A stretch of 64,000 nucleotides of DNA from Candidatus Hydrogenedentota bacterium (GTDB lineage: Bacteria; Hydrogenedentota; Hydrogenedentia; Hydrogenedentales; CAILVY01): the NCBI GenBank assembly GCA_903837785.1, contig CAILVY010000285.1, positions 1 through 64,000 of the forward strand, written 5' to 3'. A program made the translations under genes and the position numbers. Below the pieces are notes generated by a model. The model saw nothing but the letters and a program-made list of their open reading frames with translations, searched no databases and was not told where the DNA came from. This document shows positions 3,472 through 59,010 of the stretch, piece by piece. Position 1 is the stretch's first letter. Each line of letters begins with the position of its first letter.

Positions 3472-4515
3472 TTACGCGATCGCAATGGCCCGGCCGGTGC
3501 GCGCGGACTCGTAGCAAGCCGTCAGGATGAGCTGGCTTCGCACGCCGATTTCCGCGTCGGCCAGCACAGGGCTTCCATCAAGCAGCGCCTGGCTGAAGGC
3601 TTCAATCTCGGCGCGGTACATGTTCACGGGCTCGGGTGCGATGACGTGGCCGTCCCCGGCCGCCCGCGACTGCTGCGCGTCATAGCCGGCCCCACTGTTC
3701 TCGAGATAGGCCGTCATTTCGCCCGACATCCCCTGCCCGATGGTTCCTTTCGCGAGAATGCTCCCCTGCGACCCATAGAGTTCCAGCAAGTTCTTGCTGC
3801 TGTTATCCGGGATGCAGAAGAACGTGTCCACTGAGCCCAACGCGCCATTCTCAAAGCAGAGCATCGCCACCGCGCTGTCTTCCGCGGGATAGTCCTGCAC
3901 CGTCGTGTTGATCAGGCAGGAGACGCGCGTCACGCGCCCGAAGAACATCTCGAGCAGGTCGATGCAGTGTCCGCCCATGTCGATGAGCGACCCGCCGCCG
4001 CCCAGTTCCGGCACTTGCCGCCATGCGCCCGGCATCGCGGGGTACCAGCAGGAGAGCTGCGCGCGGGCATACACCGGCTTGCCAAGCCTGCCTTCCTCGA
4101 TGAGTTGCAGCGCGGCCCGGTGCTGCGCGTGGAAGCGCATCATGAAGGCGCAGCCCAACTGCACGCCCGCCTGCTCGCACGCCGCGGTCATTTCGAGCGC
4201 TTCGCCCGGCGTCATGCCCAGCGGCTTTTCGCAAAGCACGTGCTTTCCCTGGCGCGCACACGCCAGCACGTCCTCGAAATGCGCGTTGACCGGGCTCGCC
4301 ACGTAGACCGCGTCCACGTCCGCTCCCAGCAGATCCTCGCGGTTCTGCGCCGCCCGCGCGCCGTACGCATTCGCCACTTCCTCGTTCGCCTGGCGGTTGA
4401 CGTCGAAGACGGCCGCAAGCGCGGCGTTCGTGGCGGGCGCGATGCCCTCGGGAATGGTTCTGCGCCGCGCGATGCCCCCCGATCCAATCACCCCCCAGCG
4501 AATCTTCTCTGCCAT
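3472..4515 (-). CDS. Gfo/Idh/MocA family oxidoreductase
   Basis: A 347-residue cytoplasmic NAD(P)-dependent sugar or polyol dehydrogenase. The N-terminal Rossmann fold shows the dinucleotide loop GVIGSGGIARRR, and the family's catalytic segment CEKPLGM supplies the active-site Lys-Pro. The C-terminal alpha/beta domain contains GGGSLIDMGGHCIDLLEM with the conserved Asp and His. The next gene upstream on the same strand (4573-5601) is a second member of the family, 57 bp away, so the pair probably forms an operon handling successive or alternative oxidations of a sugar derivative. The exact substrate cannot be read from sequence. Confidence 0.9.
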   Translation of the reverse strand: MAEKIRWGVIGSGGIARRRTIPEGIAPATNAALAAVFDVNRQANEEVANAYGARAAQNREDLLGADVDAVYVASPVNAHFEDVLACARQGKHVLCEKPLGMTPGEALEMTAACEQAGVQLGCAFMMRFHAQHRAALQLIEEGRLGKPVYARAQLSCWYPAMPGAWRQVPELGGGGSLIDMGGHCIDLLEMFFGRVTRVSCLINTTVQDYPAEDSAVAMLCFENGALGSVDTFFCIPDNSSKNLLELYGSQGSILAKGTIGQGMSGEMTAYLENSGAGYDAQQSRAAGDGHVIAPEPVNMYRAEIEAFSQALLDGSPVLADAEIGVRSQLILTACYESARTGRAIAIA

Positions 4516-4572
4516 GTGCTGTCTCCCCGTGTTGTCCTGTGTCGGTCGCGCCGGCCGAGTCGCGGCGCGGTC

Positions 4573-5601
4573 CTATTCGAGATGAATCGTCTGCTGGCGC
4601 GTCGCCGAATCGTGCACCTCCTGGATCACCTGCATGTAGCGCATGCCATCCTCGAAGTTGGGATGATAGGGCGTTCCCTTGCGGATGGCATCCACGAAAT
4701 CCTGCTCGACGCGCCAGTCCTTCACGTCATAAGCGTCTTCGGGGGCCACCTCGACGGGTTCCGGCGGGCTGCCGGGCCGGAGCGAATACAGCCGGTCTTC
4801 GCCCACCTCGTAGAGCAGCGAAGCCTTCGTTCCGTGTATTTCGATGGCGTCGCGTCCGTTCGCGACCATGCCGCTGATCACGTATTGCACCACCACGCCG
4901 TGGTCCATGTCCGCGTTGAAGAGGAGTTGATCCGGAATGCGCATTTCAAGCGGGGAGTCCTGCGCATCGCGCCGCCACGGCGTGTATATCTGGGTCTGGG
5001 CCGTTACTGTGCGGGTCCAGCCGAACCAGCGGTGGATCACCTCGACGTACATTCCGAGCGTGATCATGTTCAATCCGGAAAGCCGGTGATCCTTGCGCCA
5101 GGACAGCGGCGCGGCGGGGTCGATGTTGACCGGGCTCAGGCCCTGGACGCGCACGAGATGCACGTCGCCCAGTGCGCCCTCCCGCAGGAGGCGGCCGATG
5201 GTCCGATCCACGCTCAATCCGAACGGCACGGGGCAGAGGGCCGCCACTTTGCCCGATTGCTGCGCGGCTTCCAGCATCTCCCTGGCTTCGTAGAAATCCA
5301 TCGCCATGCGCGCCTGGCAGAACACGTGTTTCCCGGAATGCAGCGCGGCGATGCTGATGGGATGATGCATGTACGGCCACGTGCCGATGAATACCGCGTC
5401 GAGGTCGTCGCGGTTGACGAGTTCCTGCCACGAGCGGCAGATCTCGGGAATGGCCAGATCGCGTGCTACGGCTTCGCTCGAAGCCCAGGACCGGTTCACC
5501 ACCGCGACGATTTCCACGTCGGGAATCTTGCGCAGGCCGGGCACATGCCGGTCGCGGCAAATGCCGCCCAAACCAACAAATCCAATACGCAACGGCTTCA
5601 T
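4573..5601 (-). CDS. Gfo/Idh/MocA family oxidoreductase
   Basis: The start at 5601 (MKPLRIGFVG) is preferred because GGAGAAGG lies just upstream; an upstream in-frame ATG would add seven residues before the Rossmann fold. The protein has 342 residues. It shows the nucleotide-binding loop GFVGLGGICRDRH and a typical domain layout, but where relatives carry EKP it has CQARMAM, so the catalytic Lys of the canonical motif is replaced. This may mean altered chemistry or a scaffold role. It is the upstream gene of a two-gene minus-strand set with another Gfo/Idh protein, and 36 bp downstream of a secreted PI-PLC-like gene on the same strand. Confidence 0.85.
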   Translation of the reverse strand: MKPLRIGFVGLGGICRDRHVPGLRKIPDVEIVAVVNRSWASSEAVARDLAIPEICRSWQELVNRDDLDAVFIGTWPYMHHPISIAALHSGKHVFCQARMAMDFYEAREMLEAAQQSGKVAALCPVPFGLSVDRTIGRLLREGALGDVHLVRVQGLSPVNIDPAAPLSWRKDHRLSGLNMITLGMYVEVIHRWFGWTRTVTAQTQIYTPWRRDAQDSPLEMRIPDQLLFNADMDHGVVVQYVISGMVANGRDAIEIHGTKASLLYEVGEDRLYSLRPGSPPEPVEVAPEDAYDVKDWRVEQDFVDAIRKGTPYHPNFEDGMRYMQVIQEVHDSATRQQTIHLE

Positions 5602-54755: not shown

Positions 54756-55586
54756 TCACTTGATTGCGCCGGCCGTAAGGCCCTTGATGAACCGCCGTTG
54801 CATTGCCAAGTATAGAATCGTGACGGGCAAAGATAAAATCACGACCCCGGCGAAGATGTGGTTCCAGTTCTTGACGTATTTGTCGGACATGAATCGCCAG
54901 AGCTGGACAAAGACGAGCTGGCTCCGCGGCCCCATGATGATGAAGGCCTGCATGAAGTCATTCCAGATCCAGAGCCCCCAAAAGATCACGACGGTGATCG
55001 TGCAGGGCGTGAGCAGGGGAAAGATGATGCGCCAGAAGACGGAGACCGGGCCGCAGCCGTCGATGGCCGCCGCCTCTTCCAGTTCCTTCGGCACGCTGCT
55101 CATGAACCCGCTGTAGATGAAGATGCAGAGCGGGAGCCCCCACGAAACGTAGTGGACGAGCAGCGCAAAATACGTGAACTGGATGTGCAGCATCCGGAAC
55201 TGCTGGAGGAGGGGAACCATGATGATTTGGAAGGGGATTGTGAGCCCGGCGAGGAAGAGCAGGCGCCAGAACTTGCCCGTGGCCATGGGGCGGCGCATCA
55301 GCGAATATGCGGCCATGGGCGCCGCCACCATCAGGCTGAGAATCACCGCGGTGCACATCAGGAAGCTGTTGAGCATCGGCCCGGCGATCTTGACGCCGGT
55401 GAAGAGGTACACGAAGTTGTCGAGGTTGAGCCGATGCGGCAGGGCGAGCGGCGCCTGAACAATCTCCGGGAGCGTCTTGAAGGCGTTGAGTATGGCGAGC
55501 AGGCACGGCGAGACGAACAGGAGCCCCGCGGCCAGCATGAGCAACTCCAGGAGCGGCAGCGAACGCTTCGTTGACGCGGCGCTCAT
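54756..55586 (-). CDS. Sugar ABC transporter permease (MalG-like, CUT1 family)
   Basis: A 276-residue inner-membrane protein with six helices. The start at 55586 (MSAASTKRSLPLLELLML) overlaps the stop of the upstream permease by 4 bp. NAFKTLPEI-type loop, PMAAYSLMRRPM, and the EAA motif ELEEAAAIDGCGPVSVFWRI, which docks on the ATPase, are standard for MalG-type permeases, as is the C-terminal QRRFIKGLTAGAIK. It pairs with the MalF-like protein to form the channel for oligosaccharide uptake. No MalK gene is present. Confidence 0.93.
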   Translation of the reverse strand: MSAASTKRSLPLLELLMLAAGLLFVSPCLLAILNAFKTLPEIVQAPLALPHRLNLDNFVYLFTGVKIAGPMLNSFLMCTAVILSLMVAAPMAAYSLMRRPMATGKFWRLLFLAGLTIPFQIIMVPLLQQFRMLHIQFTYFALLVHYVSWGLPLCIFIYSGFMSSVPKELEEAAAIDGCGPVSVFWRIIFPLLTPCTITVVIFWGLWIWNDFMQAFIIMGPRSQLVFVQLWRFMSDKYVKNWNHIFAGVVILSLPVTILYLAMQRRFIKGLTAGAIK

Positions 55587-56536
55587 AGGCTCACCTGCCT
55601 GCGCCGCAGCAGCGCGACCTGAATGCCCGCGATGATAACCAGGGCCAGAAACGTGACGAAGGACACGGCGGCCGCGTAGCCCTGGCGGTTGTTGAGTACG
55701 CCGAGGTGATAAATGTAATAGCCGATCGTGAACGTGCGGAAGCCCGGGCCTCCCTGCGTCGTCACCACAATCTGCGGAAACAGGTTGATGCCGGTGATCA
55801 CCGCGAGCACGGAGGTCGTCGTCAGCGTGGGCAGGAGCATCGGGAACTGAATGCGCCTGAAGACGGAGAGCGGTCCCGCGCCGTCGATCCGCGCCGCTTC
55901 GTAGAGCTCCGTGGGAATCGTCTGCAGATTCGCGAGGTACAACGTCGTGAAGAAACCCAGCCCGCTCCACGCGACGAGCGCGAAGATGAAGTAGGGGACG
56001 AGACCCGGATCGCCCATCCAATCCTGCGTGATGCTGTCCAGGCCCGCTGTCCGCAGCAGCGTGTTCATTGCGCCCTCGCGGTAATTGGCGAGATACTGGA
56101 AGAGCAGCGCGTTCACGAGAATGCTGAGGATGTACGGATAGAAGAAGAGGCCGCGAATCGGGCCCTTCCAGAAGCGGAGCGCATCCAGGATCACCGCCAG
56201 CAGCATCGACGCGAACGTGAAGAAGATCACGATCAACGCGGATTCAAGCAGCGTAAAACGGATAGCGTCGAGGAAACGCGTGTCGCTCAGGAGCTCCCGG
56301 AAATTCGCCAGCCCCACATAAGCGGGGCGGCCCGTCCAGCCCGTCCAGTTGGTGAAGCTGTAGGCGAAGCCAAGCATCGCCGGAACCACGATGAACCCGA
56401 CGTACAGCACGATGGCCGGCCCGCACAGCACCAGCGACGCCAGCGCATTGTGAATAGTTCTTCTGTTGGATGGCCTCCTCAAGATTGGGTACTCCCACCG
56501 CGCACCGCGCTTTCGCTTTGAGCGACGATACGGCAT
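55583..56536 (-). CDS. Sugar ABC transporter permease (MalF-like, CUT1 family)
   Basis: The product is 317 residues with six helices: the first is ALASLVLCGPAIVLYVGFIV. GFAYSFTNWTGWTG follows it, and the EAA motif ELYEAARIDGAGPLSVFRRI is complete. It ends with an ATGA overlap with the MalG-like gene. The start is uncertain: the ATG at 56536 has a weak ribosome site, while a strong GAGGAGG (56480-56474, minus) lies inside the frame with no start codon at a proper distance. The first ~35 residues (MPYRRSKRKRG...) lie in DNA also read by the DUF559 composite ORF in another frame. Transcription is probably from the binding-protein promoter upstream. Confidence 0.88.
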   Translation of the reverse strand: MPYRRSKRKRGARWEYPILRRPSNRRTIHNALASLVLCGPAIVLYVGFIVVPAMLGFAYSFTNWTGWTGRPAYVGLANFRELLSDTRFLDAIRFTLLESALIVIFFTFASMLLAVILDALRFWKGPIRGLFFYPYILSILVNALLFQYLANYREGAMNTLLRTAGLDSITQDWMGDPGLVPYFIFALVAWSGLGFFTTLYLANLQTIPTELYEAARIDGAGPLSVFRRIQFPMLLPTLTTTSVLAVITGINLFPQIVVTTQGGPGFRTFTIGYYIYHLGVLNNRQGYAAAVSFVTFLALVIIAGIQVALLRRRQVSL

Positions 56537-57651
56537 CTGGGTCCCGCGTGCCTCTCGTGCCAAGGGGTCGAGCAATCGTGAAGTGTGGCGACTGGAGTGA
56601 TGAAGGACGGGACTTCGTCGACCGCCAGCGAGAAGAAGACCTCGCTGATCCGTTGAGTGAGAATCTCGCAAATTAATGAACGCATAGTCGTGAGACCGGG
56701 GAACAGTGCATCGCCGCGGCGCAATGATTCGACACGCCGCCATTCATAGTGACGGGGATGATACGCTGCTACCCCCCCTTCCCCCCCGCACGCGGGGGGG
56801 TGATCCGGATTGTGCGTCAGATCGAAACTTTCGTTGACTTGTCCAGGCTCCAACACATGCTGAGAATCCTCTCCGCCCCCTCGCACGGCCGAAACGGGTG
56901 CTTCTTCACCCCCCCGCGCATAAGGGACAGAAGCCTCTTCACCCCCCCGCGTGCGGGGGGGCAGGGGGGGTAGAATCTCCATCGTTTCGTCAATTACCCC
57001 AAAGATCGCAGCAACAACATTGTCGACGTCCCCCAGCACTTCCGCGTCCGAAAAATGCAACACATTCAAACCCAAGGACCGCAGGAACACATCGCGTCGT
57101 TCATCGTATGCCGCTGCCTCTTCCCCCATATGCGATCTGCCGTCCACCTCAACTACGAGGCCTTTCTCGCGACAATAGAAATCCACGATATAACTGCCAA
57201 TGGGGTGTTGTTTCCGAAACTTGGCCGAGAGACTGCCACTCCGCAAGACATGCCACAATTTGCGTTCTGCCGGACATTCTGCCTGGCGCATTTTCCTTGC
57301 CCTGGCGAAATGGACTGTGGGAATGTGCTTCCAGGTTGTATGTCCGCCCAGGCCCATCACGCGCTTCCTGGACATCAGATAATTCCCAGGGGTGAGCCAC
57401 AGGGCGCCTTGTGACGTGATAACGCTGTATGCGACGCCGCGAAAGGACTCCGTATTCATTGACCGCACAGCGTGGGGATGGAAATCGTGGCCAAGAACGA
57501 AATCGCCAAGGGCAATGTCCTCAATGGGGCGTAGGACTACCCCCCCTTCCCCCCCGCACGCGCGGGGGTGAAGAGGTTTCTGTCTCTCCTGCATGAAAGA
57601 GCGACAGACGCATATCGTCGTTCCTTTGAGGATGCCGGAGGCAGCAAGCAT
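56479..57651 (-). CDS. DUF559 endonuclease-like domain nested in a Hint/intein-like module
   Basis: A 390-residue open frame from ATG 57651 (a TTG at 57681 would add 10). Residues ~40-100 resemble the N-terminal half of a Hint/intein: LRPIEDIALGDFVLGHDF, then SVITSQGALWLTPGNYL. Residues ~118-220 are a DUF559 (Vsr/PD-(D/E)XK-like) domain: QAECPAERKLWHVLR, FRKQHPIGSYIVDFYC, EVDGRSH, then DERRDVFLRSLGLNVLHF. Residues ~300-360 resemble the C-terminal half: EWRRVESLRRGDALF, then SLAVDEVPSFITPVATLHDC, with His-Asp-Cys where inteins have His-Asn-Cys. The linkers are encoded by C/G-tract palindromes. The N-half lacks the usual TxxH His (TPGN). The flanks are no recognisable extein. It sits between the binding protein and permease genes and its 3' end overlaps the permease start. 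Confidence 0.65.
   Translation of the reverse strand: MLAASGILKGTTICVCRSFMQERQKPLHPRACGGEGGVVLRPIEDIALGDFVLGHDFHPHAVRSMNTESFRGVAYSVITSQGALWLTPGNYLMSRKRVMGLGGHTTWKHIPTVHFARARKMRQAECPAERKLWHVLRSGSLSAKFRKQHPIGSYIVDFYCREKGLVVEVDGRSHMGEEAAAYDERRDVFLRSLGLNVLHFSDAEVLGDVDNVVAAIFGVIDETMEILPPLPPRTRGGEEASVPYARGGEEAPVSAVRGGGEDSQHVLEPGQVNESFDLTHNPDHPPACGGEGGVAAYHPRHYEWRRVESLRRGDALFPGLTTMRSLICEILTQRISEVFFSLAVDEVPSFITPVATLHDCSTPWHERHAGPRCRIVAQSESAVRGGSTQS
56772..56803 (+). repeat. C/G-tract palindromic repeat, copy 1
   Basis: Seven C, TT, seven C, GCACGC, then seven G and TGA. The C7/G7 arms pair around GCACGC. On the minus strand it encodes the PACGGEGG part of the composite ORF. It shares its core with copies 2 and 3. 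Confidence 0.85.
56901..56925 (-). repeat. C/G-tract repeat, truncated copy
   Basis: Contains CTTCACCCCCCCGCGC without the right arm, followed by ATAAGGG. It abuts copy 2 and looks like a partial duplication of its left end (both have TTCACCCCCCCGCG after a CTTC). It encodes YARGGEEA in the composite ORF. Confidence 0.65.
56926..56971 (-). repeat. C/G-tract palindromic repeat, copy 2 (inverted to copies 1 and 3)
   Basis: Starts with GACAGAAGCCTCTTCA, then seven C, GCGTGC, seven G, CA, seven G and TA. Its reverse complement matches copy 3 across the C-tracts, the GTGAAGAGG segment and the TTCTGTC end, so copies 2 and 3 form a long inverted pair around the DUF559-encoding DNA. Confidence 0.85.
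57540..57587 (+). repeat. C/G-tract palindromic repeat, copy 3
   Basis: Seven C, TT, seven C, GCACGCGCGGGGG, then TGAAGAGGTTTCTGTCTCT. It is the inverted partner of copy 2 (56926-56971); the right arm is slightly decayed to CGCGGGGG. On the minus strand it encodes PLHPRACGGEGG near the start of the composite ORF. Confidence 0.85.
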
Positions 57652-57696
57652 GTGTTCGCGTCCATCCCTCCAACTACACAAGCCAAGTATCCATTG

Positions 57697-59010
57697 TCAC
57701 GTGCCCTTGCGGGCGCTTTCCCATTCGGCATCGAGCATGGCCAGGAGTTTGTCCACATCGCGGCCGCCCGCCATGATCTCCTGCATTACGCGCGCGAGGA
57801 TGTCGTGGATGCTCGCCGGCGGCATATCGTCGAGGGCGATGTGATAGCCGGGGACGGCCCCGTACGTCTTGAGATTGGCGTTCATGTTCTCGATGAGCCG
57901 TTGTGCGGGCGGCCACGCGTACTTCGGTTGGGTGACCGGCACCTTGTCCGCCTGGCCGAACTGGCATTCGCCGTTCAGGAATTCCTGATAGACTTCCGGG
58001 TCGTAGAAGGTTTCCATCGCGGCCATGGCCTTGTCGAGCTTCTCTCCGGTTGCCGAGGTGGTGACGGCCCAGCCGGACTGCATTCCGGAAGTCTGGATGA
58101 AGACCGGCGCACGCCCGATCAGCGAAGGCACGGGCCAATACTCCATCTCGAACTCAACCTTGTTGGGTTCGATGTCGCCGGCCATCCAGCAGCCCATCAT
58201 CCACGTCGCGCCCTTGCCGCCGTAGAAGTCCCGCTGCTCCTCGTTGTACCCGTCGCTCAGCGCGCCCTTGTCCACGAATTCATCCACGAGCCGGATCATC
58301 GTTTCGAACACCTGCCGCGCGATGGGATCCTTCGCGAAGCTCACCTCGCCCTTGTCCTTGCGGAGGGTCCAGGACGGCTTGCCCGGATCAGCGGCGCGGT
58401 CGTACAGGTCGGACGCGATCGCGAAGAAGAGCGGTTGTGCCGCGTTCCATTCGCGTCCGCCCAGCACGAGGGGCTTGTAACCCTTTTCCCGAAGCTTCCG
58501 GAACGCTTCGAAGTACGCCTCCCATGTGGCGGGCGATTCCGTCACGCCGATGGCCGCCCACATCGGCTTGTTGACGACGACGCCCTGGATCTGCAGGCCA
58601 CCTTGCGTCGTGTAGCGCTTCCCCTTGTACGGCTTGGGCAGGGGTATGCCGAACTTCTCGTAGTAGGCATCCGGCAGGGGAACCAGGTGTCCGCCGTCCG
58701 AGAGAAAGTTGGCCATCTCCCACGTCATGACGATTTCGGGCAGGTCGCCGGTCGCGATACGCGACTTGTAGAAGTTGGAGCCTTCCATGTTCCCGAGGTC
58801 GATCAGCTCCAGTTGCCAACCGGGGTGATTTCGCTCGAACACGGCCTTCCACGTGTTGAAGTGCTTGCGGAATCCTTCGCGCCCCCCGATGTTCCGCGTA
58901 ACGCGAATGACGTTGCCGCCGCCGCTCTCCGCGCCGCAGCCGCAGAGGCTGGCGGCGATTGTCACGGCCAATAACGCTGGAACAAGTCGAAGAAGGCTCC
59001 GCGATCTCAT
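57697..59010 (-). CDS. Sugar ABC transporter substrate-binding lipoprotein (CUT1, extracellular solute-binding family 1)
   Basis: A 437-residue lipoprotein with GGGAGGAAATCG before the ATG and a signal peptide ending in lipobox SLCGC. The mature part has the family 1 features: FNTWKAVFERNHPGWQLELI, then the hinge segments LPEIVMTWEMANFLSDGGHL, QIQGVVVNKPMW and TTSATGEKLDKAMAAMETF. It binds an oligosaccharide outside the membrane and hands it to the MalF/MalG-like permeases. The gene order would be binding protein-permease-permease, but the DUF559 composite ORF lies between the first two. A possible promoter is TTCCCT-17-TATACT at 59050-59078. Confidence 0.92.
   Translation of the reverse strand: MRSRSLLRLVPALLAVTIAASLCGCGAESGGGNVIRVTRNIGGREGFRKHFNTWKAVFERNHPGWQLELIDLGNMEGSNFYKSRIATGDLPEIVMTWEMANFLSDGGHLVPLPDAYYEKFGIPLPKPYKGKRYTTQGGLQIQGVVVNKPMWAAIGVTESPATWEAYFEAFRKLREKGYKPLVLGGREWNAAQPLFFAIASDLYDRAADPGKPSWTLRKDKGEVSFAKDPIARQVFETMIRLVDEFVDKGALSDGYNEEQRDFYGGKGATWMMGCWMAGDIEPNKVEFEMEYWPVPSLIGRAPVFIQTSGMQSGWAVTTSATGEKLDKAMAAMETFYDPEVYQEFLNGECQFGQADKVPVTQPKYAWPPAQRLIENMNANLKTYGAVPGYHIALDDMPPASIHDILARVMQEIMAGGRDVDKLLAMLDAEWESARKGT

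Follow-up and report, generated by a model that had tools for sequence, protein, structure and literature searches.

The window, by which is meant the whole stretch of 64,000 nucleotides that was analysed, carries at one junction of a transporter operon an open reading frame (ORF) with Hint-like sequence on either side of a DUF559 domain. The ORF lies between the gene of a malE-like substrate-binding protein and the gene of a malF-like permease, and all three are co-directional (Table 1). An earlier reading of this DNA from the sequence alone (the sequence-only reading) had described a single frame with Hint-N, a full DUF559 domain and Hint-C, and this description is borne out by Pfam, by the alignment of relatives and by fold comparison. 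The start at 57651 given in that reading is an in-frame ATG and is retained as an alternative, but the ORF is taken here from the TTG at 57681. The ORF is not set in a host protein and has no exteins, the malE stop codon lying before it and malF after it; the sequence-only reading was correct on this point, as it was in stating that the ORF separates the malE-like gene from the malF-like gene and that its C-terminal end overlaps malF. At 56479-56482 the TGA of the ORF and the possible TTG start of malF overlap as TTGA; this overlap could have re-established translational coupling once the insertion had occurred. The window copy is the only DUF559 in the 7.29-Mb genome, and a second copy of the composite, for which the sequence-only reading had recommended a search, was not found in it.

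Table 1. Positions of the ORF, its parts and its neighbours in the window
Feature	Coordinates	Strand	Remarks
malE-like substrate-binding protein	57697..59010	-	stop in the frame of the ORF, 15 nt ahead of its TTG
Hint-DUF559-Hint ORF	56479..57681	-	400 aa from TTG; open frame 405
Hint block A (GILKGTTI), Gly at Cys1 position	57613..57636	-	aligned with G019, G067, G017
Palindrome copy 1 (CCCCCCTTCCCCCCCGCACGCGCGGGG), read as PLHPRACGGEGG	57537..57568	.	
Hint-N: PIEDIALGDFV .. block B LTPGN .. W117	57331..57528	-	alignment; KlbA intein profile match
DUF559 (putative nuclease) domain, residues 126-229	56995..57306	-	Pfam E 1.9e-30; 3hrl and I-Bth0305I by fold
In-frame linker of ~74 aa	56755..56976	-	encoded by palindromes (two copies plus one partial copy); only in the window copy
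Palindrome copy 2	56942..56970	.	
Palindrome copy 3	56772..56800	.	
Hint-C: EWRRVESLRRGD .. SFITPVATLHDC; terminal Asn = Asp	56572..56748	-	canonical endonuclease site without insertion; alignment, RecA profile match
malF-like permease	55583..56482	-	TTG at 56482 is the likely start; ATG 56536 also possible

The Hint halves and the nested DUF559 domain

The same full layout is present in four relatives of the same order (G019, G017, G037 and G067), and degraded forms of it occur in G062 and G055; one set of 68 genomes was covered by the order-wide search and the phylum-wide search alike. The alignment of the five full proteins gives a common layout that consists of block A (C..xGTxI), a palindrome-coded loop, the L..GD.V strand, block B (T..H), DUF559, a W..A..L..GD.V segment and an HN|C end. 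In the window protein no Hint model of Pfam or NCBIfam matches directly, and Pfam returns DUF559 only, with no HUH/Y1 transposase domain. The proposal of the sequence-only reading that Hint sequence occurs on both sides of DUF559 is supported instead by the relatives and by fold. Alignment with G019 and G067, together with the fold matches of G067, identifies a HINT fold with blocks A, B, F and G, and the five-protein profile matches solved inteins (KlbA at 5e-4, Mtu RecA mini-inteins at 0.006-0.01) as well as the DUF559 structure 3hrl (7e-29). The AlphaFold model of the G067 protein has a pLDDT of 72 overall and of about 90 or better over most of Hint, and its fold matches are the BIL domain 2lwy, gp41-1 (6qaz), Prp8 and hedgehog 1at0 (E of 5e-5 to 5e-4), while its inserted domain matches 3hrl. 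The model of the window protein itself is poor (pLDDT 47); it matches 3hrl, I-Bth0305I and DnaB inteins best.

The position of DUF559 within the fold can be read from the profile matches. Residues 72-106 of the KlbA intein align to profile positions 108-142, and between KlbA residues 106 and 118 there is a gap of 144 positions (profile 142-286), which is DUF559. Profile positions 280-339 are contiguous, without a large gap, with residues 78-140 of the Mtu RecA mini-intein, a stretch which we take to span the point where the endonuclease was deleted. The gap and the contiguous RecA match together place DUF559 after block B and ahead of the second L..GD strand. On these alignments the putative nuclease is at a non-canonical site of the Hint fold, and not after the second GD.V strand.

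At the splicing positions of the window copy, the alignment gives Gly for Cys1, TPGN for the TxxH motif (His to Asn) and His-Asp for the terminal His-Asn pair, with C at the +1 position; the counterparts of its block A are CARKGTRV in G019, CVRKGTRV in G067 and CLWEGTRI in G017. The splicing residues are all intact in only G019 and G067 among the five full composites. The residues that are invariant in the DUF559 family (E139, D167, E178, D180, H184 and D193) are all kept in the window copy. Amino acid identity to the four relatives is 0.47-0.50 in DUF559, as against 0.23-0.33 in Hint-N and 0.25-0.29 in Hint-C, and in most per-region comparisons with these relatives conservation by codon position follows the order second, first, third. 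The residue losses, the intact DUF559 residues, the contrast in identity and the frame that stays open through the palindromes together indicate that splicing has been lost and the nuclease kept. The term “decaying”, which the sequence-only reading had offered, thus applies to splicing but not to the nuclease. The architecture, the loss of splicing residues and the retention of nuclease residues are established at the level of the sequence, and nuclease activity of the window ORF may be presumed. PADLOC returned weak matches only.

The lost splicing residues and the low identity of the Hint halves, together with the insertion of the palindrome-coded linker, would also be expected of a dead relic, that is, of a pseudogenised intein and nuclease which is inactive and whose frame is open by chance. 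This explanation is unlikely, in that 405 codons remain open through at least three palindromes, all of the conserved DUF559 residues are present, and the second codon position is the best conserved even in Hint-N.

The empty site and an apparent methyltransferase intein

Homologues of malE were found in G001 (same genus, 76% identical), G036, G033 and G019. In G001 malE and malF abut, malF starting no more than about 20 nt from the malE stop codon and perhaps overlapping it, and in G036 and G033 the two genes are separated by short spacers only. The G019 contig says nothing on the junction because it contains no malF match. The absence of the ORF from the junction in G001, G036 and G033 provides the empty sites that the sequence-only reading had suggested looking for in related genomes, and from it follows, by sequence comparison, an insertion of about 1.2 kb that is specific to the window lineage relative to these relatives. 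The insertion points revealed no target sequence in common. DUF559 genes also occur at other operon junctions: at two different hpa operon junctions on Deinococcus plasmids of two species (L114 and L115), and in Sphingomonas (L118) between the genes for transhydrogenase subunits, a junction like that of malE and malF in the window.

The empty sites in three relatives speak against an ordinary resident gene of the transporter operon, which the co-directional position of the ORF between operon genes could suggest. A secreted Hint/nuclease toxin of polymorphic-toxin type may be considered together with it, because the PT-HINT model weakly touches one relative (E 0.21). In polymorphic toxins an uninterrupted Hint precedes the toxin domain, whereas here DUF559 splits Hint, so the PT-HINT arrangement does not apply; neither an immunity gene nor a secretion module was noted. 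A resident gene or toxin of this kind is highly improbable.

The contexts of the relatives differ. In G019 (L067, G019:C6, about 4377-5477) the composite is enclosed by a DNA methyltransferase (Pfam N6_N4_Mtase) within a single ORF; it splits the motif DPT|CGSGTT and has Cys1, TxxH and HN|C intact. The methyltransferase is uninterrupted at this DPTCGSGTT site in homologues from G046, G036 and G060. By context and residues the G019 copy would be a true intein, and it is apparently splicing-competent. The G067 copy (L064:1777-3015) ends in HN|CGSGATAAALENARHD*, where CGSGATAAALENARHD looks like an orphan stub of a methyltransferase C-extein. The G037 copy starts within 6 nt of the stop codon of a Gfo/Idh gene, and the G017 copy is free-standing, with the terminal Asn as its last residue; the gene downstream of it is, judged by sequence, aldo/keto-reductase-like. 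No methyltransferase remnants were recognised near the window copy on inspection by eye.

In the DUF559 tree the Hint-bearing rows cluster with weak support (66/88), and the cluster takes in two plasmid DUF559s. Viral contigs, phages and plasmids yielded no further composites, only plain DUF559, and a scan of genome contigs yielded one plain DUF559. Because the full members number five and belong to one order, the direction of change, from intein to free-standing ORF or the reverse, cannot be rooted.

Palindromes around DUF559 genes

The repeat-coded PPACGGEGG stretches of the ORF are the hairpin CCCCCCTNCCCCCCCGCNNGCGGGGG. The sequence-only reading had described the N-terminal flank as repeat-coded, and the repeat is indeed present there, but so is block A, which lies ahead of it. 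The hairpin occurs in 33 copies in this genome, against 2 in G001, which is of the same genus and without DUF559; it is absent from G002, and G017 and G037 have 56 and 59 copies. In G000, G017 and G037 the loop of the dispersed copies is of the same type as in the genome's own ORF.

At 22 of 28 DUF559 loci in the order, the inverted repeats on the flanks score higher than the 95th percentile of 540 control segments; this count takes in the Hint composites and one Spirochaete locus (L002). A flank score of at least 35 is reached by 16 of 34 DUF559 ORFs versus 3 of 290 other ORFs (Fisher 4e-15), and 8 of 11 plasmid DUF559 loci of other phyla (Cyanobacteria, Deinococcus, Azospirillum, Sphingomonas and Sinorhizobium) score at least 34, where the 95% level of the controls is 27. 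The window DUF559, with a flank score of 82, is bracketed by dispersed inverted palindromes. The GC-hairpin excess is greater in DUF559-bearing genomes (Mann-Whitney 1e-4, uncorrected for kinship), and 11 genomes have an excess without DUF559. Genes of Y1_Tnp (RAYT family), which served as a positive control, are bracketed at 11 of 18 loci (L147-L176) by a different palindrome; G001 has 8 Y1_Tnp matches, yet almost none of the window's palindrome.

Plain DUF559 genes (L091-L109 and the Spirochaete L002) usually have inverted GC-rich hairpins within about 200 bp on either side, and the ATGT/ACAT tail of hairpins that flank DUF559 is often directed toward the gene. RAYTs and REPs are known for the same arrangement, with inverted bracketing and the tail toward the gene. 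In the part of the literature that was covered, no work joining DUF559 with palindromes, or RAYT with Vsr, was found. Any role of the palindromes is a presumed one.

The bracketing in the order, among ORFs and on plasmids, the contrast in copy number with G001, the matching loop types and the similar bracketing of Y1_Tnp genes by another palindrome class all favour an explanation in which the unit is first and foremost a DUF559 nuclease associated with palindromes, a counterpart of the RAYT/REP pair, with Hint as a passenger acquired once and with mobility through the partnership of palindrome and nuclease and not through intein homing. However, four of the five full Hint composites carry their palindromes in the block A loop, where these do not flank DUF559 on both sides, and G002, G048 and G066 have palindromes without DUF559. 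We consider this explanation possible but doubtful.

Probable origin and known systems

The ORF is probably an escaped former intein which is dead for splicing and without exteins, and which persists at a junction between operon genes as a nuclease ORF standing on its own. The Hint sequence on both sides, the empty site and the G019 intein agree with the proposal of the sequence-only reading that this is an intein-type element whose nuclease is DUF559. Its history would begin with an intein containing a DUF559 (EDxHD/Vsr-like) endonuclease, of the type still present in the G019 methyltransferase. Such an intein may have become a free-standing ORF with ends close to the intein ends, which would then have been inserted into the malE-malF junction of the window lineage. 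Once free of an extein, it could have lost Cys1, the block B His and the terminal Asn, while the nuclease would have stayed intact and the Hint halves would remain as an open, degenerating scaffold. Its persistence between genes would most likely be that of a selfish nuclease gene of homing type. Homing, the insertion mechanism, the escape from the extein and the direction of descent are what we infer here. A broader proposal, which we hold tentatively and rate a little short of an even chance, is that DUF559 is a dedicated partner of widespread GC-rich palindromes in the manner of RAYT and REP, and that in one order it entered HINT at a new site, giving rise to inteins capable of separating from their exteins and of spreading to operon junctions as genes in their own right.

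Several known systems share features with the composite. BIL domains resemble it in their non-extein context, and BIL 2lwy is among the top fold matches of G067; to our knowledge, BIL domains have no nested nuclease. Vsr-like nucleases were reportedly described with split inteins in “fractured genes” by Dassa et al. in 2009, the nuclease being a separate ORF between the halves. A Vsr-type nuclease is combined with intein halves in both cases, but here they form one continuous polypeptide. By fold the DUF559 part matches both 3hrl, which it also matches by sequence, and the EDxHD homing endonuclease I-Bth0305I of a phage group I intron (3r3p), but unlike I-Bth0305I it is in cis within a HINT domain and not in an intron.

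We know of no nuclease partner for the abundant GC-rich palindromes of bacteria, and the link between DUF559 and palindromes points to one. The arrangement resembles RAYT/REP pairs (REPtrons, PMC3733652) in that a nuclease gene lies between inverted palindromes of a dispersed, genome-specific family, and differs from RAYT (TnpA-REP) in that DUF559 is PD-(D/E)XK-like and not an HUH tyrosine transposase, and in the class of palindrome. One major REP class is apparently without a dedicated transposase (PMC3733652).

A DUF559 gene of Thermosynechococcus TA-1 has been placed under “Intein-containing genes” in a text that is ambiguous on Hint (PMC9403480), and is possibly an earlier mention of DUF559 together with inteins. 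Homing-endonuclease inteins of the PI-SceI and Mtu RecA type share with the composite the HINT fold, blocks A, B, F and G and a nested nuclease, and the G019 copy, like classical inteins, is located in a conserved enzyme motif. The window copy differs from them in having neither exteins nor splicing residues, and in a nuclease that is DUF559 and lies off the usual site. A structural paper of 2019 places all intein endonuclease domains at one conserved site and asks why none occurs elsewhere (PMC6801210); the composite would be a counter-example to this one-site statement. Between an apparently splicing-competent intein and a nuclease ORF without exteins the copies form a graded series, which offers a way to study how inteins exit from their host genes.
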